NCBI GenBank assembly: GCA_034401135.1
Contig: JAWZSP010000008.1
Coordinates: 2,666,001-2,730,000, forward strand
DNA length: 64,000 nucleotides
From: Volutella citrinella
Taxonomy: Eukaryota; Ascomycota; Sordariomycetes; Hypocreales; Nectriaceae
Reading direction: 5' to 3'
Positions 12,726 through 44,810 of the stretch are shown here, in pieces. The first letter of the stretch is position 1. Each line of letters opens with the position of its first letter. The notes under the pieces were generated by a model. That model made no database searches. It was given only the letters and a program-made list of their open reading frames with translations, and was not told the DNA's origin. The position numbers and the translations under genes were made by a program.

Positions 12726-13311
12726 TGCGTCGGATGCTACCTATCCCACAGTCGTGCTCGCGTTGATAGCGGATCTCATTACCCCAGAGAAATGGAATGA
12801 CGGGCGACGGAAATAGGCCACATAAGAACAAGTGCGGGCGGGCCACATCCCATGCAATGCCATGCATGAGACAAACTGTGGGGCGCCGCCGAGTCGAGCT
12901 TGGACATGTTTCTCCGAGCACCGGAGCCTTGGCCGGCTCCCATGCCCGGGCCGGCCGTCGTGGTGCTATCCAGATGCCGTTAGTTCATGATAAGCCGCCA
13001 CTGGGAGGGAGCCCGAAAGTGCAGTTTTGGATGGCTTAAGAGCTTATGTGTTTATTAGGATTCTCTTTGCTCAGGCTTAGATTTATTCAGTGTTTGCCTA
13101 GGCTTAGGCTCGTTCCGTGTTTACATGTACTCAGGCGTAGTCCGTTCAATATCAAGGCTGCTACAGCACGGGATGGAGCATCAGACAGCGCCCAGGAGCG
13201 CGACATGCAGCTAAGCTCAATAACATATTCAACTATGAGCACCAAAGACGTCTATATCTTGCCTACTAAGTCATGGTTTGCGGCATCGTCTCATTCCCCC
13301 CCTTCCACTAC
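12726..13311. other. intergenic with minisatellite copy
   Basis: Promoter of the Zn2Cys6 gene and the 3' flank of the secreted protein gene. The only structure seen is the minisatellite copy at 13048-13157, listed separately. Confidence 0.5.
13048..13157 (-). repeat. minisatellite with CCTAAGCCTGAGC-type units, inverted copy
   Basis: On the minus strand this reads CCTTGATATTGAA, then three to four units of about 30 bp built on CTAAGCCTGAGCAAACACTGAAT, then AAGAGAATCCTAATA. The same start, units and end occur on the plus strand at 36032-36267 with about eight units. The two copies are therefore inverted and differ in copy number, enclosing 22.9 kb. A minisatellite of a dispersed repeat is the simplest reading. 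Confidence 0.75.
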
Positions 13312-15294: not shown

Positions 15295-16639
15295 GTCTGG
15301 GTGAAGAATGAAGGATGGTGCTGAATGATGGTTGGTAACGATGAATCCTGGCCTGGGGCTGGTGATGGCTAATTGCGAAGAGAGCTCACAGCTATTTATT
15401 CTTCATGCTGTTGCTCAATGCACTGCTTCGCATTGGGGAAGATACAATCGGTAACCCAATAGGTCATGGCCCCAATGAGGCTATGTTGTGGGATTCAAAT
15501 CCTCTCATCTCGCCTTAGTTCCAATCGCAAGTGTCAGACTAACACACAGCAGACACTATCTTCCGCAGCAGCTGATGATTGCCCGGTTTCGTCCACAGGA
15601 CCCCTGTCCGAAACATTGAGATGACTTGCACCTCGGTCTGTCCAGGGCAGGAAGGTCTCCATACTTGGACAAACCTTGATGAAATGAGACAGGATTCCCT
15701 GCATCAATCTTGGAGGCAAGGGTAATGGCCCAATGGAAACAGCCGAGCTTGAATAATCGGCGGCCATGGCGAGAGTGCTTGATACGGGTAACATCCATTC
15801 AGGATTCAACTGCATGTCGCTCACCCACCTGCCTAGCGAGGATGCAGTATGGCGTGGGTGGCTATATCGAGTGTTGACGCTTAGTCCCAGGGGCGGTGCA
15901 AGAGCTTGTTGCGCTCTGGCGCGGATGATGAATACACAGTTGAAAGCTAGCATCGGTGAAGCGCCTAGTCTGGCCGTGGCCCCGTCTCACCACATTGATG
16001 GATGTGGCATGGGGTTAGATCCTCGTCAGCGCACGTGGGGTTGTGCTGTGGTTCACAGCTACCCAGCAGCCCTACTGGTGGGTCGGTTGGGCTATGCGTT
16101 TAAATCCTTCAGTCTATGTGATGCGCCACCAATGCCCAAGTGGTCTGGTGAAGCAAACTTGCCCCGCGACGACTCAGCCTTGGGGTCCAAGGACAGTAGA
16201 CTAAATGCAGGGGTCAATCCGAGCCATAGTCCGAGCATAGAGTCCGATGCCGTGGTGCGAGACCAAGTCTGGGGTGCCGTGGCGGACTGTTTGCCCCGAG
16301 GATCCCGGGCCTATTTGGGAGCGATGTCCACTTGACAACAAGCGTTTGCGCTACAAATCGATGGAAAGAAAGGTCGTGGGATAGTAGAGAAACGAGCGCA
16401 AATGATATTACTGACTGAAATCAAAGGTAAGTTGGGGAAAATTTCCAGCGAGGCCACTAGGAACCTAACGAGTGACGTGACTGCTGCATTCCAACGCATC
16501 AGTTATTCGCAGCATACACCCATGATACATCATCGTCGATCCTTCGCTGGCCTTGAGGATCCATTTACTAGGTCTTATGGAACTTTCTAGTTTTATGGCT
16601 GCGCCGGTAGGACTCGGTGCAGTTCTGCTTGCACCGCCA
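15295..16639. other. intergenic, no gene seen
   Basis: Promoter of the secreted protein gene at the left. A 189-codon open frame at 15766-16335 has no recognisable domain and unusual composition, and I do not treat it as a gene. Confidence 0.5.
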
Positions 16640-17136
16640 ACTGAACTCTTCGCAGTCAGGCTTGCACATGCACTTGTTGCGACGCCGTTTCGGTCGCAGA
16701 CGGTTACGCACTCACTGATGGCCTACTGTTTTCTTGCCGTCGTCGCACTCGCAGTCGGGCTCGTACTTGGTGCCCAGACCATTCTTGCAGGTGCACATCT
16801 CATTGCGGCCCTGGTCGAGCTTTCCGATGCATTGACATGATGCGTGTTTCGTGACATTAGGAGCAGGGTATTTGCGGGTAGGGTCTCTGTTGATTTTGAG
16901 ATTCAGATCATTACACTTGCACCCAGGACATTAGTCGCCGGTGTATTGTCATTTCTTGTCCTTCGGGACTTGGGCGTGTTGCAGTTGGGCTCCAACGTGA
17001 CGTCCAGATAAGTGTTGAGGCATTCGTAGTCCATGCCAACTTTTATAACGGTCCGTTTGATAGGATTTGGGTACGTGCGCCTAGGGTACTCCCCAAATAG
17101 GAGCTTGTTTGGGCTTTGACAAAGGCTCTCAATCAT
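16640..17136 (-). pseudogene. broken cysteine-rich protein gene, copy 1
   Basis: Reading the minus strand, the frame from ATG 17136 gives GMDYECLNTYLDVTLEPNCN and then runs out near NTPAT; the coding sense continues in another frame with CPGCKCNDLNL, CQCIGKLDQG, MCTCKNGLGTKYEPDCECDDGKK, and then meets a TGA inside GHQ. A third frame piece continues with NKCMCKPDCEEF. So a protein made of short Cys-x-Cys modules is broken by at least one frameshift and one stop. A matching relic lies at 33804-34060 in the same orientation. Family unknown; a small secreted cysteine-rich protein is an inference. Confidence 0.55.
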
Positions 17137-17254
17137 CTTGCTGGAGGCGCGCCACCGGTCCTCTCCTGCCCCAGCCGCACGGAGGATGAAAGAGGCGATA
17201 AACTCAGGCCTTGAGTTATGATAAGCCCAAAATGAAGATGGATGATTAGTTTTC

Positions 17255-17660
17255 TCACTGCTTTAGACGACTGCAATGCATTGTGGAAGGTGATGTCCCC
17301 TTGGCGTAAGGTGCGGCAAGATTCTTCGGCAAGTTCCAGGAAACGGGCGTTCGATGCCTCGTCTGCTCGGAAATGAGATTGTTGGTTTTCGATGAACAGG
17401 GCCTTGATCGCTGTGACATTCCCAGGGATAGCCATTGTATGGTGGAGGATGGCGTTGGACTCGAGAATCCTCCCATGGGGGCACTCGCGAAGGTGGAAGG
17501 AATGCCAACACCGCACCCGACCATCACCATCCTTGGGTACTACTGCAGGAGCAATTAACATTGGAAAGGCTTGTGGCAGATGGGAAGATGCCGTCAATGA
17601 CCAGGGCTTTGAAGTGCGTGGCCGAGTGGGCAATGTGGTATGCTGCATAAGGATCACTAA
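17255..17660 (-). repeat. diverged repeat segment shared with 34.96-35.24 kb
   Basis: On the minus strand a frame reads WHSFHLRECPHGRILESN and continues AILHHTMAIPGNVTAIKAL and FRADEASNARFLELAEES. The motif ECPHGRxLESNxILHH recurs at about 34967-35040, with nucleotide similarity around it. In the other copy about 180 bp separate the TTCCACCTTCG stretch from the motif, whereas here they are joined, so this copy looks deleted. It is probably part of the same duplicated block as the cysteine-rich relics. Whether it ever coded for a complete protein is unclear. Confidence 0.45.
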
Positions 17661-17747: not shown

Positions 17748-18072
17748 AGATTCTTCTCAGCGCCCCGAAAATACACCCGCCGGCCGCGGGTGTATTCTTC
17801 GGGTTACGAGACAGGCGCGACTTGGTTTAACGCCGGCTTCCTCGGCATTCGGGTATAGAAATCAAGCATACCCGGTACACCCAACCATGGAATGTGCCAG
17901 CGATAGTCACACTCCATGGGGGTAGTCCCAGGGTAGAAATGCAGCCACTCCGCACGAATTCTACGACTACCAGGAAAGGAAGGCTGAATATCCCATGCCG
18001 TTTCATCCGAGCAAATCAGGTCTGAGTTATTTCTTAATATTGTTTCCCTGGATTCAGGACCTAGGGCCTGAT
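17748..18072 (+). repeat. three-part repeat A-B-C, intact copy
   Basis: A is about 17748-17849, B 17842-17950 and C about 17941-18072. Each part has an inverted partner: A' 29540-29657 (about 85-90 percent with one 16-bp indel), B' 21801-21907 (107 of 107 bases identical) and C' 20990-21114 (only transitions). Here the three are contiguous, so this is the reference copy. Part A contains an 11-bp-arm palindrome (17770-17780 with 17786-17796). Confidence 0.8.
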
Positions 18073-18281
18073 GCCGATGAAGGCAGCCGGGAGCTCCGTG
18101 CCCATCTGCCGGTGCGGGGCGGATAGCCGTCTCTGCCCCGACAGCCCCTGGTGTTCGCCCACGATCCAGATTCTCGTACAAATTAGCCTCCAGAGCCCAG
18201 ACTTAGTTTGACGTGGACTTCTTCTATTGTATATTCTGGTGCTCTATCGGAAGAACCATCAAGATCCTTCATCAATTTACC
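18073..18281. promoter_or_regulatory. promoter region of the aldehyde dehydrogenase
   Basis: Short gap between repeat part C and the ATG at 18282. The start codon is in ACCATGA context. No specific site is recognised. Confidence 0.35.
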
Positions 18282-19775
18282 ATGATTCACCAGAACTACA
18301 CGGTTCCCCTCGTTATTAATGGAGAGGAACGCATAACCGAGTCGACGTTCCACATCACTTCACCAGCCACAGGTGAAACCATCCACCATTGTTCCAGCGC
18401 CTCGCAGGCCGATGTGCGAGATGTCGTCGAAGCGGCGGCTAAAGCGTTCCCGGCATGGCGGAAGGTACCTCCCGCGAAGCGGAGGGACTATTTCCTAAAA
18501 GCGGCAGAGGTAATGGAGAGCCGTAAGGAAGAGCTCGTTGGATACATGGTCAACGAGACCGGCGGTACTCAGCAATGGGCCGACTTCAACCTGTCTACGG
18601 CCGTTGAGATCCTCAAGGACGTTGCAGGGAGGATAGTGATGATTGAGGGCTCAGTGGGCAGTACGGCGGATGAGAACGTTAGTGCCTTAGTATTGAGGGA
18701 ACCTTACGGGGTTGTTCTCGGTATTGCTCCCTGGTACGTTGTCCCTTTTCCTTCTGTGAGAAGTCTTCCCACTCATCATCTTCAAAGGAATGCACCGTAT
18801 ATACTCGGGGTAAGAGCTATAGCATATCCCCTCGCTGCCGGAAATACCGCAATCCTCAAGGGTAGCGAGCTCTCACCGAGAGTTATGTGGGCTATAGTGT
18901 CTTGCTTCCACCAGGCCGGGTTCCCCGTTGGCGTCCTCAACTTGATTATCCACGCGCCTCGCGATGCACCCGCCATCACATCGACGCTCGTCGCTCACCC
19001 TGCCATTAAGAAGATCAACTTCACAGGCAGTACTGGCGTGGGACGCATTATAGCCAAATTGGCCGGAGAGCACCTCAAGCCCGTTCTCCTTGAGCTGGGT
19101 GGCAAGGCCCCCGCTATTGTATGGGAGGACGCTGACCTTACCCAAGCCGCGCTTCAGTGCACTCTCGGCGCCTTCCTGAACTCAGGGCAGATTTGCATGA
19201 GTACAGAACGTATTATCGTGCACAAGGCTGTGCGCTCGCAGTTTGAGAAGGAGATGGTAGTGGCGATGGAGAGCATTTTCCCGGCCAAGGGCGACGCGCC
19301 AGTACTCATCACCGACGCCGCTGTGCGCAAGACGATGAACCTCGTCCGCGATGCGCTCAACAAGGGTGCCTCGGTCGTGGCGGGCGAGACTCCCTCGAGC
19401 AATGCGCCGGAGCCGACTACGAAGATGCGCCCCATCGCTGTGGCGGGCATCTCACCCCAGATGGATCTCTACGCCACCGAGTCGTTCGGGCCGACCGTGG
19501 CTCTTTTCGAGGCTGAGACTGAGGAGGAGGCGCTCCGTCTGGCGAATGACACCGAGTATGGGCTGTCCTCAGCTGTGTTCACGGCCGACCTGCGCAGGGC
19601 CCTGCGCTTCGCGCGAGGGATTGAGACTGGCGCTGTGCATATTAACAGCATGAGCGTGCATGATGAGCCGGGGCTGCCGCATGGGGGGGCGAAAGCCAGC
19701 GGCTACGGGAGGTTCAACGCGTCCGTTGGGCTCGATGAGTGGGTGAGGACCAAGACGGTGACGTTTCTGATCTGA
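18282..19775 (+). CDS. NAD(P)-dependent aldehyde dehydrogenase (vanillin/salicylaldehyde dehydrogenase-like)
   Basis: Oxidises an aldehyde to its acid. Two exons (18282-18733, 18788-19775) encode 479 residues; the 54-bp intron (GTACGT to AAAG) is a multiple of three and its removal restores the conserved GIAPWNAPYILG. Catalytic Glu lies in LLELGGKAP and catalytic Cys in NSGQICMSTERI; the C-terminal TESFGPTV and the closing GLPHGGAKASGYGR are also typical. The motif FxNxGQICMSTER is characteristic of the branch containing vanillin, benzaldehyde and salicylaldehyde dehydrogenases. Start chosen at ATG 18282 because upstream codons have no ATG and no homologous look. It lies between the two arms of the A-B-C inverted repeat. 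In context it would oxidise aldehydes released by the neighbouring cleavage oxygenase; that is inference. Confidence 0.88.
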   Translation: MIHQNYTVPLVINGEERITESTFHITSPATGETIHHCSSASQADVRDVVEAAAKAFPAWRKVPPAKRRDYFLKAAEVMESRKEELVGYMVNETGGTQQWADFNLSTAVEILKDVAGRIVMIEGSVGSTADENVSALVLREPYGVVLGIAPWYVVPFPSVRSLPTHHLQRNAPYILGVRAIAYPLAAGNTAILKGSELSPRVMWAIVSCFHQAGFPVGVLNLIIHAPRDAPAITSTLVAHPAIKKINFTGSTGVGRIIAKLAGEHLKPVLLELGGKAPAIVWEDADLTQAALQCTLGAFLNSGQICMSTERIIVHKAVRSQFEKEMVVAMESIFPAKGDAPVLITDAAVRKTMNLVRDALNKGASVVAGETPSSNAPEPTTKMRPIAVAGISPQMDLYATESFGPTVALFEAETEEEALRLANDTEYGLSSAVFTADLRRALRFARGIETGAVHINSMSVHDEPGLPHGGAKASGYGRFNASVGLDEWVRTKTVTFLI

Positions 19776-20989
19776 GGTCAACATTACTCTATATCTATTC
19801 ACAACCACTGAAGTCAAACTCATCCAACCCAGTTGAACACGTACAATTTCTTGCCCAATGTCTCATCAAACTTCGAGGAACATCAAAGACCATTCTGTTC
19901 ACATTCATTGCTGTTCTCACTGTGGATTATCCTCGCCGTCTCATCACTTAAACCCTTCGGGAGGGACTCTAGGACACCACTTATAATCCCGTTCTCGACG
20001 GCGACCCTCATGAGGCCTATCGCTCACCAATGTCGAGCGTCATGCAGCAATGGAACAGCGATTTAGGCACCATGACCCGTAAACCCATTTTAATCACTAG
20101 TGATTTGACGGCGCAACAGCTAGTAGATCTCCAGTGATGTAGGTAATTTTGACCCCGTCCAAGTCTTCTGTGATAGTGGCGCCTGATGCGAGCGATAGGG
20201 CGTTGATTCGGAATTGTTCTTGCCCCATCCAGCTTTTGTATACATGTACCAAAATGTCGCCTCGCGCATCCGGTCTATGCGCACGACATATCTAGCGATC
20301 CTCCATTGCCGCGGGTTGAAAGCCTAGAAGAAGCTTCGCTGAATCGCGGTTGGAAATGCGGAAGTTCCATATCGCGGTAGTACGTCTCTTCATCGCAATG
20401 GTTTTCCAAGCTACTCCAATGACGCGTGTGGAAGGACCGCGAAGGGTAGGAGATGTGGTAACTACAGGGTTATGAACACTGTCCATCGTGGTGTCAAGGG
20501 ACAGCGCTTTGGTGGTAAGAACAGATGTGGAAGTGAGGAGTAGTATCGAGGTTGACTTTGGAGAACATCGCGGCCGGGGCTACTTTTAGCACGATCTATA
20601 TTCAGCCATTTCTACAGTATCTGAAAGAAATAACTAAAATCTACACTTCATTAGCTCCCGCATTCACGTAGGCAGGCTAGGGAAAACCATCGCGGCAAAA
20701 ACCTAGCCCAGAGCTCGCCCCCAAAGCGCTGGCTGCTGTTATTTTGTTAGAGGCCAAGTTCGGCAACCTTGACATTATCCGAGTCAAAGATCCTCAGGTA
20801 TTTCGCCACATAATTCCCGAGGAGCTTAATTAGTTAGTAATTATAGGCTTATAAGGTTTACTATATAAACTAAGTGATCCTTACTTCTATTAGTTAAGGC
20901 CCTATTCTTTCCCAGAGGGTTGATCTGTTCTACGTAGTATAGCCGTGTAGTCTTATCACGGTGTGTTAGCGTCAGGTTCTGACACTTGC
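19776..20989. other. AT-rich, probably RIP-mutated non-coding stretch
   Basis: No gene seen. From about 20600 rightward the sequence becomes strongly AT-rich with many TA steps (for example around 20820-20880), unlike the GC-rich flanks. Since the adjoining C' repeat shows RIP-type transitions, this stretch probably belongs to the same mutated repeat or transposon remnant. Confidence 0.5.
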
Positions 20990-21114
20990 CCTAGGTCCTA
21001 AATCTAGGGAAATAATATTAAGAAATAACTTAGACTTGATTTACTTAGATAAAACAGTATAGGATATTCAGCCTTCCTTTCCTAGTAGTCGTAGAATTCG
21101 TGCAGAGTGGCTGC
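20990..21114 (-). repeat. repeat part C', inverted and RIP-mutated
   Basis: Aligned with the reverse complement of C, about 16 of 125 positions differ, and all are G to A or C to T transitions toward AT, most in CpA/TpG context (for example ATGGG to ATAGG, AAACAAT to AAATAAT). It ends in GTGGCTGC (21107-21114), which recurs at 21801-21808 where B' begins. Confidence 0.75.
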
Positions 21115-21183
21115 AGGAATCGTCGCCTCTGACGTCGAGAATCCTAACTAGCTAAAACCGAGTAGGAAATCAAGTTAATAAAA

Positions 21184-21714
21184 CTATAGAGCTGCTTTTT
21201 TTATCAAAATCGAATCTTGTGCAAGCTCGACAATATGCCCATCCCCATCCAAGCGATACCATGTCATGAGTTTCACCAAGGGTCCATCACCCTGAAATAC
21301 GGGACCCCAGCCCCCAAAATCATCTAGTTTAAAGCCGTCTTTCCCCGCGAATTGGGCGTGATACTCCACTGCAACCCAACCTCCTTCGACATCGAGTGCG
21401 ATCCTTGTTGGGTTCATTGTCGCTTTCACATTCTGATGGAGGGGAATGATCCATTCGAGATATCCCTTCAAGGTTTTGTCCTGGAGAAGTTCCAAGTTCA
21501 CCTTCGCGACGAAGTTAGAGCTACATAACTACCTGGCATGTATTTTCGTGCGCAGACGGGAGATGGGGCAGATTGTTTCACTTACAGCAATGTCCTTGTG
21601 ATAGTATTGGCAGTAATGGGCAAAGTCGTCTCTATTGAATGCTGATATGTAATCCAAGACATCTTCTTTGCTACGGATGGCTTTGCTGCCGGTTTTGATT
21701 GCATCGAGCGCCAT
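21184..21714 (-). CDS. SnoaL/NTF2-like small protein
   Basis: Two exons (21714-21586, 21501-21184) give 148 residues; the intron has a GTAAGT donor, a CTCTAAC branch and a GAAG acceptor. The fold signature is the helical start (SKEDVLDYISAFNRDDFAHY) followed by a curved sheet with YLEWIIPLHQNV, WVAVEYHAQFAG and VKLMTWYRLDGDGHIVELAQD, typical of SnoaL-like or NTF2-like proteins (polyketide cyclases, hydratases, isomerases). I cannot name the reaction. The gene sits in a 686-bp segment bounded by direct copies of GTGGCTGC, between repeat parts C' and B', so it looks like a separate insertion into the repeat. In the cluster it may process a ring-cleaved or hydroxylated intermediate; that is speculation. 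Confidence 0.7.
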
Positions 21715-21800
21715 GTGTGGAGAGGAAACCGTAAAGGAGAGCGGTTGATGCTAGATCGGACCACTTCAATGACGGTATGGCTGCTACCTATATAACGTGC

Positions 21801-21907
21801 GTGGCTGCATTTCTACCCTGGGACTACCCCCATGGAGTGTGACTATCGCTGGCACATTCCATGGTTGGGTGTACCGGGTATGCTTGATTTCTATACCCGA
21901 ATGCCGA
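21801..21907 (-). repeat. repeat part B', inverted, identical to B
   Basis: All 107 bases match the reverse complement of 17842-17948. The left end GTGGCTGC duplicates the end of C'; the right end AATGCCGA (21900-21907) duplicates the start of A' (29540-29547). No RIP-type change is present, in contrast to C'. Confidence 0.85.
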
Positions 21908-22201
21908 AGAGTGGGTGTTCCGTGTGAAGTTCCGTCGGATGCGGATACGCCCGCAAACTCCGACCGCCCGCCGTGGCAACGCTTGGCCTCGGGGGTCAGT
22001 GGCATAGGCCCGGACTCGAAGACGAACCGCACTGCCATCCATGCTGTAGTGGGCGTTCACTACTCGAAGAAACGAGCAAGCATATAGAATCGGTCTTTTT
22101 AGCTTGAGCCCAACGGAAGATTTTCATGCTCCCCATAAGTCCTCCTATTCTCACTTTTCTAACCTGTCAACCTCTCATACCCCCCGATCAGCTCATTCAT
22201 C

Positions 22202-23941
22202 ATGGAAGGGCATCACAGTCTACCTCCAGTTTCCCGATCTTTTCAAGATCGAGATGTTTCCAATTTCATGAGGCCTGTTCGTTTCGAAGGTGAAATCAAC
22301 AATTTGGAAGTCATTGGAGAGATTCCGAAGGAGATTGATGGGACGTTCTACCGCGTCATGCCGGAGCCACAATTCCCGGCTTTCATTCCCAACGATCCTG
22401 TATGCGAGCGTTCCAGATGATGAAGCTGCAAGGTCTGCATATACTAACCGTTGGTACAGTGGTTCAATGGCGATGGCAACGTCAGCGCCTTCAGGATTAA
22501 AGATGGATACGTCGATCTCAAGCAGCGATATGTGAGGACCGAGAAGTTTGTTCGGGAAGCCAAGGCACGACGAGCCTTGATCGGTGAATCATGCTTGTAA
22601 TCTTTGCAGTTGTGGGCGCACCTAACATGGGTCTGGCAGGCAAATACCGGAACAGGTATACGGACGCCGTCGCATTCATGGTTCGCTCCACGGCAAACAC
22701 AAACGTTGTTTACTGGCATGGAAAACTCCTCGCGCTGAAGGAAGACTCGCCTCCGTATGCGCTCGATCCGGAGACTTTGGAGACGCTGGGACTCTACGAC
22801 TTTAACGGACAGCTCCCCAGTCTCACATTCACGGCTCACCCCAAGTTTGACCCGGAGACGCGAGAGTTGATCTGCTTCGGATATGAGGCAAAGGGAGAAG
22901 GAACGCTGGATGTTTGTTACTATTCGTTTGACGCTGAAGAGAAGCTCACCGAGCTGACTTGGATGCTCGCTCCTGCATGCGGCATGATTCACGACTTTGG
23001 TGTCACGAATAACTATGTGAGTGTTTCTGTCTGTCCAGTCTGGGCCAGCAGAGTTCAGCGTCGTTGACAGAAATTTGGTCAGGTGCTTTTCCCAATGATT
23101 CCTCAGGTCTGCGACCTAGAAAGGATGAAGGCCGGGGGGGAACACTGGGAGTGGGACAGCACAATGCCCATGTACATTGGTGTCCTGCCCAGAAGAGGCG
23201 CGAAGGGCAGCGATGTGAAGGTTCGGATCGGCGTCCAACGCAGCAGATATGCATACTGATGACTTTTTGCAGTGGCTCGAGGCACCCCATGGTTTCGCAG
23301 GGCACGTCGCCAATGCGTACGAAAATGAGGCGGGGCATATCGTCCTAGAGATGGCGTATTCCAAGGACAACGTATTCTTCTGGTGGCCAGACAAGGACGG
23401 CAAGAGCCCACAGCCCGGCCAGGCTCAATGCGAGCTGGTGAGGTGGGTGATTGACTACGACAGCAGCGAGATTCGCCTGCCTGAGCCTCAAGTACTTGCC
23501 CCGAAGGATATGGAGTTCCCGCGCATCGACGACCGGTTTGCGTCTGAGAAACACCGACACACTTTTTTCTGCTACATGGATAGCCAGGCGGGCACAGACA
23601 TGGCGTTCATCGGGCCAATCTTGGGAGGTGGACATCCGTTGTACAACGGACTCGCTCACTACGATGCGAAGACCAAGAAGATGGCCCATTTCTTTGCAGG
23701 ACCGCGGAAGCTGACGCAGGAGCCTGTGTTTGTCCCGCGCAGTGCGACGGCGGAGGAGGGTGACGGTTACGTTATCTGTTTGCTGAACAACTATGACGAG
23801 ATGTGCAGCGAGTTGGTGGTACTGGACTCGCGCAACTTTTCGGAGCCGGTGGCACTCGTCAAGCTGCCCATCCGCCTCAGGCAAGGCTTGCACGGTAATT
23901 GGGTGGATGCAGCCGACGTTGACGGACATCCATCCAAATAG
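22202..23941 (+). CDS. carotenoid/stilbene cleavage oxygenase family protein
   Basis: Non-haem Fe(II) dioxygenase that splits a C=C bond into two aldehydes. Exons 22202-22399, 22460-22583, 22640-23016, 23083-23220 and 23273-23941 join to 501 residues, a normal family length. The four iron-binding histidines are visible at about 174 (TAHPKFDP), 225 (GMIHDFG), 290 ([10 protein letters not shown]) and 486 (GLHGNW). [15 protein letters not shown] and the NRYTD stretch are typical of the fungal/bacterial branch with lignostilbene, isoeugenol and resveratrol cleavage enzymes such as Neurospora CAO-1, rather than carotenoid-ring enzymes. No membrane segment or signal peptide, so cytosolic. The fourth intron has a weak GTTCGG donor, but the frame and conserved VKWLEAP junction support it. 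Substrate is inferred from neighbours: an aldehyde dehydrogenase, a decarboxylase-type amidohydrolase and a P450. Confidence 0.85.
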
Positions 23942-24266
23942 TGAGGAGTAGACGCAGGTAGCACCTCGTGATGCGGAGTTTCCCTTTATACTGGCTGAGA
24001 TGCGCCGAGGTCTCCACACCCACAGCTCAATTACGTGATGAGACTCCACAGCCAACAGCAACTCTGGGGCCGTAAAAAACTGCCGAAATCGCGCACTCCA
24101 CACGAACCGCTGGGGTTTAATCTCTGGGGCCGTGGGGAATAAGTGGGGCCAAGCACGAGACACCACCCAGGAAAATCAATGGACCGAAATAAATATTCAA
24201 CCCAAATCCGCTTCGTATCTGTGATGTCGGGGCAAGCGGGGTAATTGTTGTCGACGACACAGCAGC

Positions 24267-26924
24267 ATGTCCCAACGACGCCCCCCTCCAGACGAACCCG
24301 AAAGCGATGGACAGACGAACTTGCGGAAGCGAAAGCGTATAGCCGTGGCGTGTAAGAACTGCAGCGCAAGGAAGTCAAGAGTAACCCCTCCCCCCAAATG
24401 CCCAGGCAACGCCCGCAGATCAATGCCCCCTGACACATTCAGTGTGACGGACAAGAGCCCAAGTGCTCAACCTGCATCGCGATAAACGCCGATTGCGTCT
24501 ATCTGCGCCCTCCAATAGCTCATCAACCACGCCCAGCAGAGTATGAGGCTATGAGCCCTGGAAATCACGAAGATGGCTCGCAGCTGACTGGAGATTTTAG
24601 GTCCGACATTGAGCTACATTCCCGGCTGGAGACCATAGAAAAAAGCCTAAAGCAAGTACAAGCGATGATACCAAGCTTGGACACCATGGCCAGGCCATTT
24701 GAAGCAACACGCTCCGCAACTTCACACATGACCAGCAACAGTCATGACACCAGCGCGGCAAGCAGCTATACGCAGACGACCCTCGAAGTAGACGTTGTCG
24801 ATGGTATGGGTACCATGCTTGCGCATGACCATCTCAATGAAGATGAGGATGAAGATCTCGAATATTTTGGTAGGTCTTCTTGAGCCTTCTCACTGACATT
24901 TCACTCACACCGCAAACCCCAGGCATTTCGTCCAACATTGCACTCCTCAGGAAAGTGAACCAAACATCATTCTACGCGCGCCTCCTAAATTCTACGGACC
25001 CAGCATCGTCTACGAATATCTGTTTGAGTGATCGTCAAAGGAAGGCGCGGACGGCCTCATTGCCAGCTTCAGCCCAGGATACCGAGTCCAGACCTCAACG
25101 CTCGTTGAATGTCCACGGCCTTCCAACACTTGACAAAGGCACCGAACTTCTCCGACAGTTCTTCAGCACTGCAGGGCTGATGTTACCCTGCTTTCATGAA
25201 CCGCAATGCATGGAAATATTTCGGAAGGCTTCGCTGAACGGACCGACCAGCATAAGCAGGACCATGCTGGCCACTCTCAACGTCATCTTTGCCTTCAGTA
25301 ACGTTGTGGCGACAACCTCTTCCCCACCGCGCGATTCCTTTGTCTCAAATGAGTCGGATATTTACTACAGCCGGGCTATAGCCTTGACGGAGAATTTTTT
25401 TGATCCGTCCAGTCTTGAGACAGGTAGGTTTCGATTCAAGCGCGCAGGTCCTTGGCTTATAACATTTAGTTCGACTGTCACTCATCTTATCCACATATTT
25501 GATGGGCACCCAGCAGTCTGTGAAGTCTTGGAACTTCCATTCACTCGCCGTGGCCGGCGCCATCAAGCTCGGGCTCAACTCCCACAATGCTGGAAAGTCG
25601 CTCTCCCTGCTTTCGCGAGAAATGCGGAAGCGGGTTTGGTTTTGGTGTGTTACGAATGACCGGCATGTCTTCTTGTGGCTCCAGTATTTCCTTGTTGCTG
25701 ACTGAATGGAAGATTTCTCAGCATGCTTTTTGGCCGCCCTCCGTTAATCCACCAATCCCTCGTCAACATGTCACTGCCAATCGATATCAGCGCAGAATAC
25801 CCTTGCAACTTATCACGCTCTCTAATGGGATCGATTGTCGATCATTACAGTGCTCTCATGTAAGTAGAGAAATGCGTTGGTCCCGCCTCGTGTGAACGCA
25901 AAGCTCAACTCAGATAGAGAGCTCTCTGCATTGATGGGGGAAGCTGTCGAAAAGCTATACAACCAAAATCTAGGATGGGGCCTTTCCATTACCACTGAAA
26001 AGCTACTCGCGTCCAGGCTGGATTTAATCTGGCGACTGGGAGACTGGCGAAACGCCCTACCTCCTATACTGAAACCTGTCGCTTCCCACGAGGTGTACGA
26101 AATCGGCTCGCAACACACACTCGAGAATTTACGCCTCCGTACCTTCCTCACTTTGCGCTACAAATGCGTCCAGGTCTTGATCAATCGAGCCGTTCTGTTC
26201 AAATACATGGACTACCAGCCTGAATCCGACATCGAAAGCCGAGAACTTCAGCTACTGCAGAGCTCAGGACGGTGCAGCTTACATGCTTGCCGAGAAGAAT
26301 GCCGAGACATGGTCAGTTTTGTGGCCGCCCTCCTCAACCCTGTCGAAGACTTCGAAAACATCACTCTGTTTGGCGCCTGGTATTTCAGCTGTTATTATGG
26401 TGAGTTTCTGGCGGGCCTCAGTACAAAACTACAGTTAAATTGACTCTTGCAACAGTCTTCAACGCTGCCTTGACAATCCTGGGAATACTGCTGGTAGGCA
26501 GGTTATCCCACTTCCAAGGGTTATTCGACTCCCGCGACGCCGTACAAATGCGGAAGTGCTTGCATGAAGCGTATGAGGTCCTAAGTATGCTTCACAATGG
26601 GAATCCCATGATTTTGCGATGCGCCGAATGCCTGTCTAAATTAATTCAGATATATGAGTCTAGAGGTAAGAGGGTAGTCTTGAACGTTGGATAGCCTCTA
26701 GTGATCTTGGCTAATGGGGATTAGATGGCGTCAACGATCATGCTCTGACAGATTCACTCCGACGGAACATGCAAAGCCAAACCAACGCCAGGGCTCTTGA
26801 AACACATGTTGATTTGGAGAACCCTAGCTTGAACACTGGCTTTGGTACGAGCTCTGGAGGAGGACTAGGCATGAGTTTTGACTTTGACTTCATAGACGAT
26901 TTCTATCAAACGATAACTCAATAG
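24267..26924 (+). CDS. Zn2Cys6 transcription factor, likely cluster regulator
   Basis: Eight exons (24267-24380, 24443-24869, 24923-25423, 25470-25662, 25722-25859, 25918-26399, 26456-26665, 26725-26924) sum to exactly 755 codons, giving 754 residues. The zinc cluster spans intron 1: C-KN-C-SARKSR-C-DGQEPK-C-ST-C-IAINAD-C. The fungal_trans region follows (about 230-480) with SLILSTYLMGTQQSVKSW and MRKRVWFWCVTNDRMLFGRP. The intron at 25663 uses a GC donor (GCATGT) with a normal CAG acceptor. The acceptor before exon 6 is the least certain junction; I took the one that keeps the frame. It lies in the middle of the cluster inside the 7.6-kb inserted segment, so a role as pathway regulator is likely. 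Confidence 0.82.
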
Positions 26925-28100
26925 CGGTGAAATATAGGCTGCAGCAATATACTCGCGCTGTTATCTTTGAAAACGTCCCTCGTCGATGCTGCTCTTCTCC
27001 AAGGACTCTTCAGCTGGTGATGAGAACGGACACCCGGGCCCCTTGCTATTCGTTCCTATTTAATGTTCTTTACAATAAAACGAACTCTCTGGCCATAATC
27101 ACACTATTGCAGAGAAAAATGAGTGAATAGAAATATATCTCTTGAAAACCCCAGGTGTTTCGTAATGCTTTTTTCTTAACGTGAGGCGGCGGATGGGTGC
27201 CTTTTTCGAAAGTGGCCCGGAGGCGGGGTGAAGGAAATCTCTGATGGTTTCGGGGAACCTCTCCCTCGGCATACCGGTCCTCGGGCACCCTTCAACGACC
27301 CGCACACCCTTAGGATATGGAGGCTTAATGCCGCGTGAATACTGAATGATGCGTGCTTGGTGGGAAATCACCACCAGTGTGGGTACTACCAGGCGGGTGT
27401 GGGTTCAACCCCTGCATCAGCCCCTGCAGCCCCATCCGGAGATCCCGCCAGCTTCATCGCCCAAAAGAATAGATCCAAGATGCCAAATTTCAAACAAAAA
27501 GAGGAACATACGACACCAGGTATTCGCTGGTTGTTACACTGGCTTGACGCGATGGAAAGCAGACAGGATCCCGTATTTTTCCAGTGGGTGTGGTCGTATG
27601 TGTTGTATCGAGGTCGAGGTACGAGCTATCTCGTGTGCGGCCGTGTTCATTTTCGAATATACAGCCTGCTGCGGCCTGACCCTTTCGGCTGGCCGGCGAC
27701 GAGCTTCTCGAGAATTCTTGCTAGTCATGTCAATTTTCGTTATAGAGTTTACATCCAAGCTTCGAGATTGCGTCATGTTAGTAACGCATCAAAGCCCTTC
27801 CGATTACTGCCTTGCAGGATATTGAATTAAGAGCTTTGGTCAGGCATGGCCTTTTAGAACTAACCCTGATAGATAACCAGAGGCAGCACCGCAGGGTCAG
27901 TGACACTGATGGCACTGATCATGTCGATCAAGGTAATTCAAGCCAGATCCTATGTGCCTTTCCTACATATTCCAAGATATACCAGCCCTTGGTTCAACGA
28001 AACCTCAATATCATAACTTGACATTTCGCAGCAGAGCTATACTGGATTCATCACAGTTCACAACAGGCTCGTGAACCGCTACCCTGGACATTTCATCCAA
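26925..28100. other. intergenic, no gene seen
   Basis: Three prime flank of the regulator and of the amidohydrolase (convergent). Two overlapping open frames at 27346-27830 have no domain and no splice support. A B-box-like GGGTTCAACCCC near 27400 is not part of a tRNA cloverleaf. Confidence 0.5.
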
Positions 28101-29279
28101 TTACTCTTGTAGCGCGAGGAGCTTTTCTTTGATCCTTGGGAAGATCCTGAAAGCATTTTCGTACCTGATAGCATTCAATTCCGGCTCGGTATACCCAAAA
28201 TCGACTAAATCATGCTGAGTCTTTTCCAACATTGCCTCGGGAAAGTATGGAACTAACGAAAGGTCTAGTTGTTAGCCGGTACTTTGTAAATATATTCGAG
28301 AGCATGCAGAATGAGATCTCTGAATCCCCCTCAGTGGGAATTACTTACAATCTGAGCCGACAAGTAGCTGGCTTGTAGACGTGAAGTTTCTCAATGCAGC
28401 CAATTGAGAAGGACTTGTCGCAGTCGCAAGGTCGAAATAAAACGTCTTCGTGGCCTGGGCGAAGTCTGAAGGATGTAGTCCCGCCATGAATGGCAGACTC
28501 GATATTCCCGCGATACGGTCGCCCAGGAAGGGGATCGTGCCGCCGCCGTGGGACCAAACCAGTCTTACCTTTGGATATTTCTTGCTAGCTTGTTGTAAAA
28601 TGTAGTTTGTGATGGCGCGGGTGGTGTCAAAAGGGTATTCCAGAGCCGGCGAGCCGGTGTGGGGGATCTTGACTTCTAGGGCTGGGGCGACAGGGTGCAC
28701 GATCACGGTTGCGTTTCTCCTGTTCAACTCTTGAAAGAGAAGGTCGAAATGCTCATGTCCAAGGTACAGACCGTCGTAATTGGTCATTAGGCCGACAGCT
28801 TCGAATTTCAGCTCATCCAAGCAATACTGTTGAGATTTGTTTTTGTTAGGTGCTTTGTTATACCTCCTGTTAGGTGAATTGTCACGTACCCTGACCTCTT
28901 CGATTCCTCGCTGGATATCTTGCAGGGGCACACAAGCCGCAGCGCCGATGCGCGAAGGATTTTTGACCGAGAGTCTATGCATCTCATCGTTGCATTTCCT
29001 CGCAAGCTTGGCGGCTTCCGTTGCATTCTTGACATGCTGCACGCCTGGGGCTGTGATGCTGAGGATCGAGAAGTCGTATCCGAAGTTGGATCGGTTTTCT
29101 ATGTAAGCTGCCTCATCGACAAGAGGAGTCGGAAAACCATCAACGAATACAGTTTCCCCTTTTGGCGTGTTCTTCAGTGGGCATCCACTCTCGAGGAGGC
29201 TCTGCACCCAGAAATCGAATGGCGCGGGGTGGGTGTGCACATCGACCTGATAGCCTGGGCGGAGTTTCAGTGTTACCAT
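28101..29279 (-). CDS. amidohydrolase_2 family metal enzyme (aromatic decarboxylase type)
   Basis: Exons 29279-28890, 28826-28349 and 28252-28101 join to 339 residues, the usual size for the ACMSD, gamma-resorcylate, 2,3-dihydroxybenzoate and 5-carboxyvanillate decarboxylase family, which removes CO2 without oxidation. Metal-site motifs are present: HxH in [10 protein letters not shown], His in TVIVHPVAP, His in [18 protein letters not shown] and Asp in LVGSDFPYFPE, the last spanning intron 2. The ATG at 29279 is preferred because the metal site then starts at about residue 13; an in-frame ATG at 29348 would add 23 basic residues. The first intron (63 bp) is a multiple of three and lies between GIEEVR and YCLDELKF. 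It lies tail-to-tail with the regulator. In the pathway it could decarboxylate the acid made by the aldehyde dehydrogenase. Confidence 0.82.
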
Positions 29280-29539
29280 GGCGAGGCTCGCAATTTGACG
29301 TTGTTTGTAGGAGTAAATACGGCGACGGAGTTTGTTCAATTGGGTCATGGGGATTGTTGTCAGATAAACACAACAACCTCCACTTCCCGTTGCGGGTATC
29401 GGGCCGGGAAGCCGGGGCTCCCGGGTTTCGGGGGTACGAAATATCAAGCTGGAAAAATCGACCCCCGCCCCCCCACCTCCTTTCCAAGCAACGAGGGGGC
29501 GCGGGTATGTGATCTCGGGTAAGCAGCGGAGACCTCACA
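29280..29539. other. promoter region of the amidohydrolase
   Basis: The gap holds the amidohydrolase promoter and a C-run near 29460. The right end (CACA then AATGCCGA) marks the end of the 7.6-kb inserted segment. No TIR-like match to the segment's left end is seen. Confidence 0.4.
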
Positions 29540-29657
29540 AATGCCGAGGAAGCCGGCGTTAAACCAAGTCGCGCCTGTCTCGGGGCTTACTCAGTGTGAT
29601 ACCCGAAGAATTACACCCCCGGCCGGCGGGTGTATCTCGGGGCACCGAGAAGAATCC
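29540..29657 (-). repeat. repeat part A', inverted
   Basis: Reverse complement matches 17748-17849, with one extra stretch of about 16 bases near 29585-29600. Includes the palindrome arms TACACCC (29612-29618) and GGGTGTA (29628-29634). Starts with AATGCCGA, the same 8 bases that end B' at 21900-21907. The match stops near GAGAAGAATC at 29657. Confidence 0.75.
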
Positions 29658-29945: not shown

Positions 29946-31672
29946 ATGTCTCACCTGTCTCTTTATGTGGTGGTATTGGGGACTTTTTGTGTAGGCTGGG
30001 TGTTTGCGACAGTCTACAAGGTGTTCTTTTCCCCCCTTGCGTCTGTGCCAGGGCCCTTTATGGCCCGGGTGTCCGACCTCTGGTACACTCGTCAGATTTT
30101 ACGAGGGTCCTTTGAACAAGAAAATTTGAATCTTCACAAGAAACATGGTTGGCCCAGTCCCTTCTGCTCCTGGCAACCTGCATCATGCATCATGCCCTCG
30201 TCGCTAACAGACACTTCCTCCTAGGCCCAGTTGTTCGATACGGCCCGAACCGATACAGTGTCTGCGATCCATTGGCCACGCAGATAATCTACGGTATTTC
30301 AAGCAAATTTCTTAAATCCAGCTGGTACTCTAGTTGGAACAGCCCAAACCCAGCTGAGTGGAATCTGTTCGGGCTACGCGACGCCAACCAGCACAGCCAT
30401 TATCGTCGTCAATATCAAACGACGTATAGCTTGTCATCCTTGGTCAACTACGAGTCGTATGTTGACGAGTGCTCGGACCTCTTCCATCAGCGGCTATCTG
30501 AGATGAGCGAAGAAACCGGCAACGGAGCTATTGACCTAGGTCATTGGTCCCAGTGCTATGCTTTCGACGTCATCAGCCTCGTAACATATTCGGAAAGATT
30601 GGGCTTTTTGGACTTCGGTCTAGACGTCGAGAACTTGATGAGTAACCTTGACAAGTTCCTTCTGTCCTCAAGCGTCGGCGGGGTATACCCGACTGTCTAT
30701 ATGACACTTGTGAGAATGATAAATTGGCTCATAGGACCCAACGGGAATCCCTTGGTTTCCATCTTCAAGTTTACTGAGAATTGTGTTGTCGATCACCAAG
30801 CCAAGCAGAAAGCAGAAACGAAACATGACGACAATGAGACTATTGACTTTCTCAGCAAGTTCGTCAACAAACATAGAGACGATCCTTCGACTTTCACAAC
30901 CTACCACATCTTGACAGGCTGCCTGAACAACATGCTTGCGGGTTCTGACACCACGGCCATCAGTCTTTCAGCAGTTTTCTACTACCTGATGCGAAACCCA
31001 GAGACATACGCAAAGCTTCGTGAAGAAGTAGACTCTCTCTGCACCACTTTCAACAAAGAACCGGGACACATTAGCTTTCAGCAGAGCCAGCAGATGCCCT
31101 ATCTGCAGGCAGTCATCAAGGAGTCACTTAGGATGCATCCAGCCACGGGCCTCCCTTTGGAAAGAGTTGTGCCTCCAGGAGGCGCCAGTCTTTGTGGAGT
31201 TACTTTTCCTGCAGGTGTAAGTTGTGATCTCCTGGTCGGCGGCCTGCAAGCGTTAACCAACAATCCACCTAGGCCATTGTGGGAGTAAACGCTTGGGTGG
31301 AACATCGGAATAAATCCATTTTTGGCGAGGATGCCGAAATATTCAACCCGGATCGATGGATCAACGCTGACAAGGATCGACTGAGCGCCATGAATCGGCA
31401 CTGGATGCCTGTAAGTCTTGATTTCACTCATAATATCCGTATGCTACAGCCTGGTTAACCATCTCTAGTTTGGCCTTGGCTCCCGCACTTGCATCGGTCG
31501 CCATATTTCAATGCTCGAGATGTCAAAACTAGTCCCTCGCGTTATAAGAGACTTCGACATGAGGCTCTCTACTAACACTCCATGGGAAACAACAAATCAT
31601 TGGTTTGTCAAGCCTAGGAGCTTTAGGGTCTTGATTCAGCGTCGGAGAGATGGGGATACCTCGGTTCAGTAA
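29946..31672 (+). CDS. cytochrome P450 (pisatin demethylase/CYP57-like)
   Basis: Monooxygenase of 511 residues from exons 29946-30147, 30225-31216, 31273-31410 and 31469-31672. An N-terminal membrane anchor (LYVVVLGTFCVGWVFATVY) is followed by the proline hinge SPLASVPGPF. The I-helix oxygen site is AGSDTTA, the ExxR is ESLRMHP, and the haem-binding loop is FGLGSRTCIGRH with Cys452. The stretch SKFLKSSWYSSWNSPNPAEWNLFG and RRQYQTTYSLSSLVNYE are typical of the branch containing pisatin demethylase, which act on plant phenolics, although many members have other substrates. The first intron has a weak GTTGGC donor. It begins 289 bp right of A', so it lies just outside the repeat-bounded segment but in the same functional group. 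Confidence 0.85.
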
Positions 31673-33803: not shown

Positions 33804-34060
33804 TCATCTCATTGGATCCGACATCAGTGCATCTCTGCTCAACTTACACCGCCCATTCAACACGTCAAAGTCAGACTTTCGCACGCACTTGTTGCAACGG
33901 CAGACGGCCACACACCGATCGCCTACGTTTTTCTTGCCGTTGTCGCGCTCACACTCGTGCTCATATTTGATGTCGAGATTCTTGTAGATGCACAACTTTT
34001 TATGGCAATAGTCGAACTTTCCGGTGCACTGACATGATGCGTCATAGACACATTTAGGTG
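33804..34060 (-). pseudogene. broken cysteine-rich protein gene, copy 2
   Basis: On the minus strand the sequence reads CVYDASCQCTGKFDYCHKK, LCIYKNLDIKYEHECERD, NGKKNVGDRCVAVCRCNKC. It aligns with copy 1 at 16640-17136 (shared ASCQCxGK, KYExxCExDxGKK, NKCxxK). It has fewer breaks but no start or signal peptide, and several cysteines of copy 1 are replaced (for example CTCKN by CIYKN). A relic is the best reading. Confidence 0.5.
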
Positions 34061-34200
34061 CAGATTAGGCAAGTATAGTATTAGACAGGTAAAGGATTAG
34101 GCAAGTAAAGATTAGACAAGTATAGTACTAGGTTTAGTTAATGAGACTGTTCACGATGGGAATTATTTATTGCCAGTCGTTCGCCTGTCCTTGTATTACA

Positions 34201-34860
34201 TTAAATCTTCCTCTTCTTCGCTACCGGGCCCGAACCAGGGCTCTCTGGCGCCACCAAAACTTCCACAAAGCGCACCTCAGTGCCCGATCTTTCGTCAAAA
34301 TTTGCCATTCATGTTAGCATAGCAAAACACATAGTAATTAATAAAAACTTACTTTGTACACCGGACAGCTCGGCCCCTTTCTGCCGTTCATGTGCTGTCG
34401 AAGACCGCGGATGCGGTCGAAGGTCTTGCCGCAAAAGCGACACTTGTTCTCAGCGTAATCAGCGGCCGAAAACCGCATTGTCTTGTAATCAGCTACCAGT
34501 TCTGGTAGCTTGGCGTAAAGGCCATCTTCGCGGCCTTGCCGATTTCTTGTCGCCACTTCTAACTGTGTGGCCTCAATATGGGCGCACAACTCGTCGAGGG
34601 TGGCTGCATCGACGTCTACTAAATTAACTGGGTATTCAATCAAGGTGGACATAATTAAAACACATACCGAGAAGGGTTTGTTGGTTGGCCACCGGCATGG
34701 GAGCCGGGGCAATGCGGGCGCAAGCCGCGTCTTCTTGTTCAAAAAAGGTCTCAAGAGAGACCAGGTCTTCTTCCGCTGCCGGAAGCGGGAACACGACGAC
34801 CTCCTGGAGAGAGCCATCTGGTGCGGTAATACTTAAAATTGGTTGGGCGTTGGTGTCCAT
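34201..34860 (-). CDS. small CCHC zinc-finger protein with C-terminal nuclear signal
   Basis: Exons 34860-34668, 34618-34353 and 34275-34201 join in frame to 177 residues. The start MDTNAQPILSITAPDGSLQE is followed by an acidic stretch (EEDLVSLETFFEQED), a helical part (DAATLDELCAHIEATQLEVA), a finger CRFCGKTFDRIRGLRQHMNG (C-x2-C-x12-H-x8-C), and after intron 2 an end PVAKKRKI that looks like a nuclear localisation signal. Three exons in frame plus a sensible C-terminus argue for a real gene. I do not recognise the family; a DNA-binding protein is inferred. The 5' end is tandemly duplicated: the upstream ATG at 34942 opens a frame that soon runs out of frame, and an in-frame ATG at 34899 would add 13 residues. 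Confidence 0.5.
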
Positions 34861-34942
34861 GATGAAGCGGAAGAACGATGACCTCCTGGAGGGAGCCATC
34901 TGGTGCGGTAATCGTCAGAATGGGTTGGGCGTTGGTATCCAT
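34779..34942 (-). repeat. 82-bp tandem duplication over the zinc-finger gene start
   Basis: Units 34942-34861 and 34860-34779 both begin with ATGGAnACCAACGCC and are about 88 percent alike. Because 82 is not a multiple of three, only the inner copy is in frame with the rest of the gene. Confidence 0.75.
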
Positions 34943-34959
34943 GATTCACACAAATGGAC

Positions 34960-35240
34960 TAGATGGCATGGTGGAGGATAGTGTTGGACTCGAGAACCCT
35001 CCCATGGGGACACTCCTCGAACTGGAGATGTGTGAGTTCGTCGTTCAATTGGCTCACAGCGAGCGTGACTTTTCCCCTTGTTCGACAAGCGTGCACAGGG
35101 CGAAGGTTGTAAGGTGAGAAGTCCAAAAGGTGGTACCCCATCAGGAGAGGCAACAGGGTTGCGCCTCAGGCCCAGCGCCCCACGAAAACGGAAGGAGCAC
35201 TTCACGAAGGTGGAAGGAGCACCAACACCGCACCCGAGAG
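34960..35240 (-). repeat. diverged repeat segment, longer copy
   Basis: Minus strand reads LTHLQFEECPHGRVLESNTI (motif at about 34967-35040). The right part near 35204-35235 (GGAAGGAGCACCAACACCGC) matches 17491-17520. Compared with copy 1 about 180 bp are extra between these parts. Confidence 0.5.
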
Positions 35241-36031: not shown

Positions 36032-36267
36032 CCTTGATATTGAATGAACTAAGCCTGAGCAAATAATAAATGAGCCTAAGCATGAGCCGTCCCTTAAGGA
36101 ACCTAAGCTTGAGCAAACACTGAATGAACCTAACCCTGAACAAATACTGAATGAATCTAAGCCTAGGCAAATACTAAGTATATCTAAGCCTAGGCAAACA
36201 CTGAATGGACCTAAGCCTTAGCGAGCACTAAATGAATCTAAGCCTGAGCAAAGAGAATCCCAATAAC
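36032..36267 (+). repeat. minisatellite, CCTAAGCCTGAGC-type units, expanded copy
   Basis: About eight degenerate units of 26-32 bp (CTAAGCCTGAGCAAACACTGAAT type) run from CCTTGATATTGAA to AGAGAATCCCAATA. The inverted short copy is at 13048-13157. Confidence 0.8.
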
Positions 36268-36496
36268 ACACCCGCTCTTCTGCCGACTAGCTTCAAGGTC
36301 CGGGACGGGAATTGTTTGTGTGGGGCATCTCTCTCCCCGAACAGCTCCCGGTCCACCGCCTGGGTAGGCTAAATGATAGCCTAATACTGGACTAATTCTC
36401 CGTCCCCAGCGGCGATGAGGGGCTGGAGCACTTCGCTTCACCATATCTCCGTATCCATCCATCCGTTTCAACACATCCCACCTCGGCGTCGCACTC

Positions 36497-43760: not shown

Positions 43761-44112
43761 CAGGGCATAAAAGGGATATCTATTGGGTAGGCCAGTCGAT
43801 ATATCCCGTTCTGAATAACAAAGAATCATCCTTCGCAAAATTGGAGGGATCAATCATGACCGCGATTGTACAATGGAGCCAATAGTGACATGATGAGTGA
43901 CTGTCGTCCAGCGGAGACTGTGAACTTGGATGTTGGCGTTGTTCCACACGGATAGCATACAAAGTAGCACGTATCAAGGCATCGCGGTGGACGAGCTCTG
44001 GCAGCTAGTGCAGAGAAACAAGAGGCCATCAAATAATAGTAAATGATGTATTGGCCGTTCAAAGAAAGACCAAAAAGAAACCAAAAGAGGCTCAAACGGG
44101 CAAAAAGAAGAA
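43761..44112. other. intergenic, no gene seen
   Basis: Three prime flank of the sugar transporter and downstream flank of the first tRNA-Glu. A T-rich terminator-like run (TTCTTCTTTTTG on the minus strand) follows the tRNA at about 44094-44111. Confidence 0.5.
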
Positions 44113-44184
44113 CTCCGATACGGGGAATCGAACCCCGATTCGCGCGGTGAAAACGCACAGTGCTAACCGTTACACCATATCGGA
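44113..44184 (-). tRNA. tRNA-Glu (UUC), copy 1
   Basis: Cloverleaf on the minus strand: acceptor TCCGATA pairs with TATCGGA; D arm GGTGTAACGGTTAGCAC; anticodon stem GTGCG/CGCGC with loop TTTTCAC, anticodon TTC; T arm GGGGTTCGATTCCCC. No intron. Identical to copy 2 at 44739-44810. Confidence 0.95.
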
Positions 44185-44738
44185 TGAATGCTGACAACGT
44201 CTTTTAGTATTTGCTATTATGTTTTCACCGCGTCTGCGAGTGGGTAAAATTTTCTCCACAAGGCGGGACAAGCATCGTTGACGGTGAACAGCGTCTATAA
44301 GGCAGTCCTTCTCGGTAAAATTGACGATTCCCTCGAACTCTAATCCTTGTCTTAACATCTAACCCTGACTAACGCTAACTTGAATCACTTACACACCTAC
44401 TAACCCTGACCCTCGCTGGGCAGCTTGTTGGAGATACCCCAGGATCCGACGAGAAAAGCGGGGCGACCCGAGGCGCGCGCTCAAACAAATCACTGAGTTT
44501 GCCAGCCTCTACCCGAACATGGTGTCACCACCGCCAGCTGCACGACATCGCAGCCTTCCAAGATCACCTGTCTGCACCAACGTCAATCTCACCAACGAGT
44601 GGGATCCCCTGCGTTTGCCCGCTTGAACTTCCCCCTCATTGCCCAAGGATGAGCGCCTATCAAAAGATGAAAGCCGGCCAAAGAGAGGAGATATTCCTTC
44701 GGCTAGAACAGAAAGGAGCACGAGCAAAAAGAAAACAA
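44185..44738. other. spacer between the two tRNA-Glu genes
   Basis: No gene seen. The short sequence beside each tRNA 3' end is also alike (CAAAAAGAA just before the gene on the plus strand), suggesting duplication of the tRNA with a little flank. Confidence 0.5.
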
Positions 44739-44810
44739 CTCCGATACGGGGAATCGAACCCCGATTCGCGCGGTGAAAACGCACAGTGCTAACCGTTACA
44801 CCATATCGGA
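44739..44810 (-). tRNA. tRNA-Glu (UUC), copy 2
   Basis: Same 72-base sequence and structure as 44113-44184, about 626 bp apart and in the same orientation. Confidence 0.95.

Follow-up and report, generated by a model that had tools for sequence, protein, structure and literature searches.

An inverted repeat copy split by two gene-bearing inserts with short duplications at the junctions in Volutella citrinella

The assembly of fungal metabolic gene clusters is usually inferred by comparison between species. The described systems closest to the arrangement reported here are transposons of the hAT family, which are characterized by an 8-bp target-site duplication and short terminal inverted repeats, Mutator-like elements with 9-bp target-site duplications and terminal inverted repeats, gene-capturing Pack-MULEs, the capture of filler or templated DNA at staggered double-strand breaks, and microhomology-mediated template switching. 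The arrangement is located in a window of 64,000 bp (the whole stretch of DNA analyzed) from the ascomycete Volutella citrinella, positions 2,666,001 to 2,730,000 of contig JAWZSP010000008.1, assembly GCA_034401135.1. An inverted copy of a short repeat is opened there at two places by DNA carrying genes of a putative catabolic cluster, and an unsplit copy of the repeat lies nearby. The window is inside a 3.5-Mb contig, and the genome searched comprised 45.1 Mb on 26 contigs.

Like hAT transposition, the locus shows target-site-like duplications of about 8 bp (here 9 bp, with 8 bp possible, and 8 bp), but terminal inverted repeats were not found, nor was a transposase in the 8 insert open reading frames (ORFs) scanned or any other copy of the inserts. 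Mutator-like elements and Pack-MULEs are resembled in the gene cargo and in a first duplication that can be 9 bp long; the locus differs from them in the second duplication of 8 bp, in that terminal repeats were not found, and in the 7.6-kb length of the larger insert, which contains whole genes. The capture of DNA at staggered breaks is matched in that target bases are duplicated although the insert ends are neither defined nor conserved, and likewise by direct duplications of the fill-in type, single-copy inserts and clustered breaks; the inserts are nevertheless large, contain whole genes and are flanked by two duplications of nearly equal length. Template switching is approached by a microhomology at the joined donor junction and by the interleaving of pieces from two sources, in contrast to which the step back of 8 to 9 bases is here nearly constant.

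The split copy, the unsplit copy and the duplications

The 319-bp sequence A-B-C is present as an unsplit copy at 17749-18067, and alignments assigned its inverted copy to three pieces in the order C', B', A' (Table 1), as described in a first-pass annotation made from the letters of the window and a list of its ORFs. The ORF of the whole copy spans both split sites, and the distance between the unsplit and the split copies is 3 to 12 kb. The pieces C' and B' share the 9 bases GTGGCTGCA, making the first duplication 8 or 9 bp long, and B' and A' share exactly the 8 bases AATGCCGA, with different bases on both sides. Each duplicated 8-mer occurs a single time in the whole copy. The 8-bp duplications annotated at both junctions are exact overlaps, of which the second is 8 bp and the first may be 9 bp. 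An overlap of at least 8 bases was reached in just 25 of 200,000 simulated junctions without duplication; because of this result, both duplications were taken as real, and chance was rejected as the origin of the overlaps. Both split sites are within the 107-bp piece B', at a distance of 99 bp from each other. When a 3-base gap is allowed, B' can be aligned 5 bases (CGTGC) further into the whole copy.

The sizes and contents of the two inserts agreed with the annotation: 686 bp with a SnoaL-like gene and 7,632 bp with an RPE65-family cleavage oxygenase, a regulator and an amidohydrolase. A second copy of insert 1 or insert 2 was not found in the genome at E values of 0.001 or below; the remaining DNA matches comprised stretches of the dehydrogenase gene, the degraded end of a dispersed repeat (20825-20984) and, at 27522-27613, a relic similar to 5S genes.

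Table 1. Features of the split repeat and of the surrounding gene cluster, in positions of the window
Feature	Position	Strand	Remark
Whole repeat A-B-C	17749..18067	-	End of an ORF plus 3' palindrome
ORF of the whole repeat	17804-18181	-	125 amino acids; repeat holds the ORF end
Palindrome in A	17764..17803	.	Core TACACCC..GGGTGTA
Aldehyde dehydrogenase (outside inserts)	18282..19775	+	One intron, open frame
RIP-degraded end of a dispersed repeat	20825..20984	+	Relatives on contigs C6 and C11
Piece C'	20988..21115	+	114/128 identical to 18067-17940
First duplication, left copy GTGGCTGCA	21107..21115	+	C' ends with it; 8 or 9 bp
Insert 1	21115..21800	.	686 bp, taking the duplication as 8 bp
SnoaL-like gene (insert 1)	21184..21714	-	One intron, 148 amino acids
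Piece B'	21801..21907	+	107/107 identical to the whole copy
First duplication, right copy GTGGCTGCA	21801..21809	+	B' begins with it
Second duplication, left copy AATGCCGA	21900..21907	+	B' ends with it
Insert 2	21908..29539	.	7632 bp
RPE65-family cleavage oxygenase (insert 2)	22202..23941	+	Five exons, 501 amino acids, open frame
Zn2Cys6 regulator (insert 2)	24267..26924	+	N-terminal domain tested; extent read by eye
Amidohydrolase, Amidohydro_2 (insert 2)	28341..29279	-	First two exons modelled
Piece A'	29540..29656	+	First 43 bp identical (43/43), then diverged palindromic tail
Second duplication, right copy AATGCCGA	29540..29547	+	A' begins with it
Cytochrome P450 (outside inserts)	29946..31500	+	One ORF tested, 30149-31285; gene extends beyond that ORF

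At E values of 0.001 or below, A-B-C matched nothing in the genome apart from its own locus, the pieces C', B' and A', and the palindrome that it contains. The 125-residue protein encoded by the repeat had no match in Pfam, its best PDB match had an E value of 0.21, and beyond itself and the pieces it gave weak genomic matches only (E values of 0.09 and 0.23). The palindrome, with up to 3 mismatches allowed, is present at two sites of the genome, in A and in the A' copy, and was therefore probably copied along with the rest of the repeat; it has changed faster. Piece A' is 81% identical to the whole copy over 118 columns with gaps counted; when its tail (29583-29656) is aligned with the 58 bp of the unsplit repeat that are left (17749-17806), 4 positions mismatch, 2 gaps of a single base occur, and A' has 16 additional bases.

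Repeat-induced point mutation (RIP) causes one-directional changes of C to T or G to A, mainly at CpA. All 14 differences between C' and C were of this type, 9 at CpA, 4 at CpG and 1 at CpT. A RIP-like composition extends from about 20800 to 21195 and crosses the junction of C' with insert 1, which indicates that insert 1 was probably already in place when RIP acted. Across 150 bases, made up of B' and the initial 43 bp of A', no change was found, so that copying and splitting look recent for most of the repeat, judged by these alignments. Within 3 bases of C' lies the degraded repeat end at 20825-20984, which presumably is the end of a long terminal repeat; its terminus TTCTGACA is common to the copy on contig C11, and the copy on C6 reads TTCTAA.

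Signs of a probable single episode

The explanation favored here, with a rough probability of 0.38 and thus tentative, is that an inverted copy, originally contiguous, took up gene-bearing DNA at two breaks with a stagger of about 8 bases, probably in one episode and with inserts that were formerly contiguous. The contiguous copy C'B'A' would have been broken at the two split sites, and the ends, staggered by about 8 bases, would have been filled in and have left short direct duplications. A donor block of SnoaL-like gene, RPE65 gene, regulator and amidohydrolase gene would have been captured during the repair. If this donor was itself broken in the spacer from which the SnoaL-like and RPE65 genes diverge, the freed 107-bp piece B' may have been joined there, resulting in the order C'-D1-B'-D2-A', with D1 and D2 for the two donor parts. 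We infer the single episode, the end joining after fill-in and the former contiguity of the inserts.

Placed directly one after the other, the right end of insert 1 and the left end of insert 2 read CGTGCAGAGTGG. At the first split site, C' has the same base in 12 of 12 positions, a match found in none of 3,000 random pairs of window flanks; the whole copy agrees in 11 of 12 positions (3 of 3,000 random pairs). Over 15 bases, the joined ends agree with C' in 14 positions (2 of 3,000) and with the whole copy in 13 positions (3 of 3,000). The two split sites and the joint of the donor ends have the shorter motif TGCnGAG in common. Since 5 of 300 random triples reached the same, or 6 of 300 for an 8-base window, this motif is weak evidence. 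These tests of the joined ends and of TGCnGAG were devised after the match had been seen. Without B', a spacer of 380 bp lies between the SnoaL-like gene and the divergent RPE65 gene, and without A' one of 549 bp between the divergent amidohydrolase and P450 genes, both the size of ordinary promoter spacers.

Several observations weigh against this explanation. Equal staggers of 8 bases are not expected for random breaks and would fit the action of one enzyme better, and the 12-base match was tested post hoc. The diverged palindromic tail of A' does not agree with a single recent copying event. The third-position content of G plus C is 0.51 in the SnoaL-like gene, 0.66 in the RPE65 gene and 0.68 in the aldehyde dehydrogenase gene, a contrast unlike the simplest expectation for a single source, although the SnoaL-like gene is small. 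RPE65 genes at three other loci of the genome also had no SnoaL-like neighbor in the stretches examined, two of 9.9 kb and one locus on the 3-kb scale, and neither amidohydrolase nor aldehyde dehydrogenase genes were found as their neighbors there by tblastn with six window proteins. At an E value of 0.01 or below, the genome did not contain a second SnoaL-like gene.

Other explanations

The alternative closest in weight, possible but doubtful, is two transposition events with duplications of 8 bp each, or of 9 and 8 bp, caused by a hAT, Mutator-like or other transposase acting in trans on segments whose ends cannot be recognized. The equal length of the duplications within one base pair agrees with this, and so does the presence of transposase genes: matches to the hAT dimerization domain were found at at least three loci of the genome, one of them with stops, and MULE-domain matches at at least three loci, one of these in a frame open over 976 codons, two others interrupted by stops. 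The hAT genes, if active, may leave room for an action in trans. However, inverted repeats at the ends of these recent inserts and other copies of the inserts were not found, two independent hits within 107 bp together with the 12-base match of the joined ends would have to be coincidences, and removal of B' leaves an ordinary-looking divergent promoter. Of the two insertions with target-site duplications claimed in the first-pass annotation, the double opening of the copy with short duplications stands, but the distance of only 99 bp between the sites, the match of the joined ends and the ordinary-looking promoter spacer left without B' speak against two independent events; the 12-base match weakens the model of two independent insertions.

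The searches for a transposon agreed with the annotation that no terminal inverted repeats and no transposase are to be seen. Over 13 registers, at most 7 of 20 positions matched between the ends of insert 1 and at most 8 of 20 between those of insert 2; the terminal 300 bp of the inserts gave inverted BLAST matches of 7 to 9 bases only, and the four insert ends compared in one register had at most 6 of 16 positions in common. None of the 8 ORFs scanned against Pfam, out of 19 insert ORFs of at least 100 amino acids, encoded a transposase. Since the event looks recent, end repeats should hardly have decayed, and their lack counts against standard cut-and-paste transposition. The hAT-type mover considered in the annotation was not supported: the event looks recent, yet end repeats were not found, nor was a second insert copy, and 9 bp is a possible length of the first duplication. 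An insertion by a standard hAT or Mutator element appears poorly supported by the sequences of the ends. No definable ends emerged for the native hAT and MULE elements, which prevented a direct comparison with those of the inserts; the insert ends and 8 hAT and MULE loci shared matches of 11 to 12 bases only, with E values of 0.14 to 0.55. A search for KDZ transposases gave no match, but the controls were silent too, and the result is no evidence of absence. One hAT-like and one MULE-like transposase gene, the latter with the long ORF (L034 and L041), are no more than about 5 kb apart on the 0.61-Mb contig C11, between 110 and 124 kb.

Replicative template switching is unlikely. A polymerase would have alternated between the repeat and the catabolic block and re-entered the repeat 8 to 9 bases behind its exit. 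The microhomology of 12 bases that the joined donor ends have with the first split site, the motif TGCnGAG in the three places named above, and the palindrome beside the repeat as a plausible break-prone site would agree with such an event, but the model does not fix both re-entries at 8 to 9 bases, the motif is reached too easily by random triples, and a template locus for the inserts was not found in the genome.

It is rather improbable that the catabolic cluster existed earlier as one contiguous block and that fragments of the repeat copy were dropped into its gene spacers. The positions of B' and A' in divergent spacers and of C' between convergent gene ends favor this reading. So do the genes themselves, in which no break was seen as far as they were modelled, as a whole for the RPE65, aldehyde dehydrogenase and SnoaL-like genes and in two exons for the amidohydrolase gene. 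Three colinear fragments on the same strand that overlap by exactly 9 and 8 bp, however, need staggered cutting and an ordered re-insertion.

Lower still in probability is a novel mover or nuclease that makes staggered cuts of 8 bases, installs gene-bearing DNA without terminal repeats and builds a catabolic cluster stepwise at one site. A retroposed gene copy was rejected, as the model of the SnoaL-like gene needs an intron and a poly-A tail was absent from the 60 bases inspected at each insert end.

The cluster, its surroundings and its meaning

The genes in the window require introns, and the rRNA spacer of the genome has a fungal, Hypocreales-like appearance. The families of their products suggest that the SnoaL-like protein, the RPE65 oxygenase, the regulator, the amidohydrolase, the aldehyde dehydrogenase and the P450 may form one pathway of aromatic breakdown. 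The SnoaL-like protein reached 24.8 bits with the Pfam model SnoaL_2, under the curated cut-off of 27. P450 genes also lie a few kilobases or less from two of the other RPE65 genes (L053 and L054), and their products are 26 to 31% identical to the P450 of the window.

In insert 2, the stretch 27522-27613 is a degenerate 5S rRNA-like sequence that can be aligned with true 5S genes on contigs C3 and C1; an Rfam scan of 27200-27800, which includes this stretch, gave no match. The whole cluster is flanked by a local direct duplication, X (16628-17520) and X' (33843-35237), with 72% identity over the longest block of 218 bp. X' has 19 matches in the genome; a dispersed repeat at about 34043-34142 accounts for 15 of them, all of which are short pieces. 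A candidate third split repeat in X' (35015-35194), noted from a BLAST overlap, failed as an exact duplication. Outside X and X', the sequences 13038-13122 and 36196-36279 form an inverted repeat with 82% identity, with further copies at 36.0-36.3 kb. Two tRNA-Glu (TTC) genes, 44096-44194 and 44720-44818, are located in direct repeats that are about 94% identical.

With an unsplit copy of the target nearby, a single genome is enough to read the joins base by base. If the capture of gene-bearing DNA at staggered breaks also holds true in relatives of V. citrinella, several genes of a likely pathway would have been captured recently at one spot, and no recognizable transposon would have been involved.

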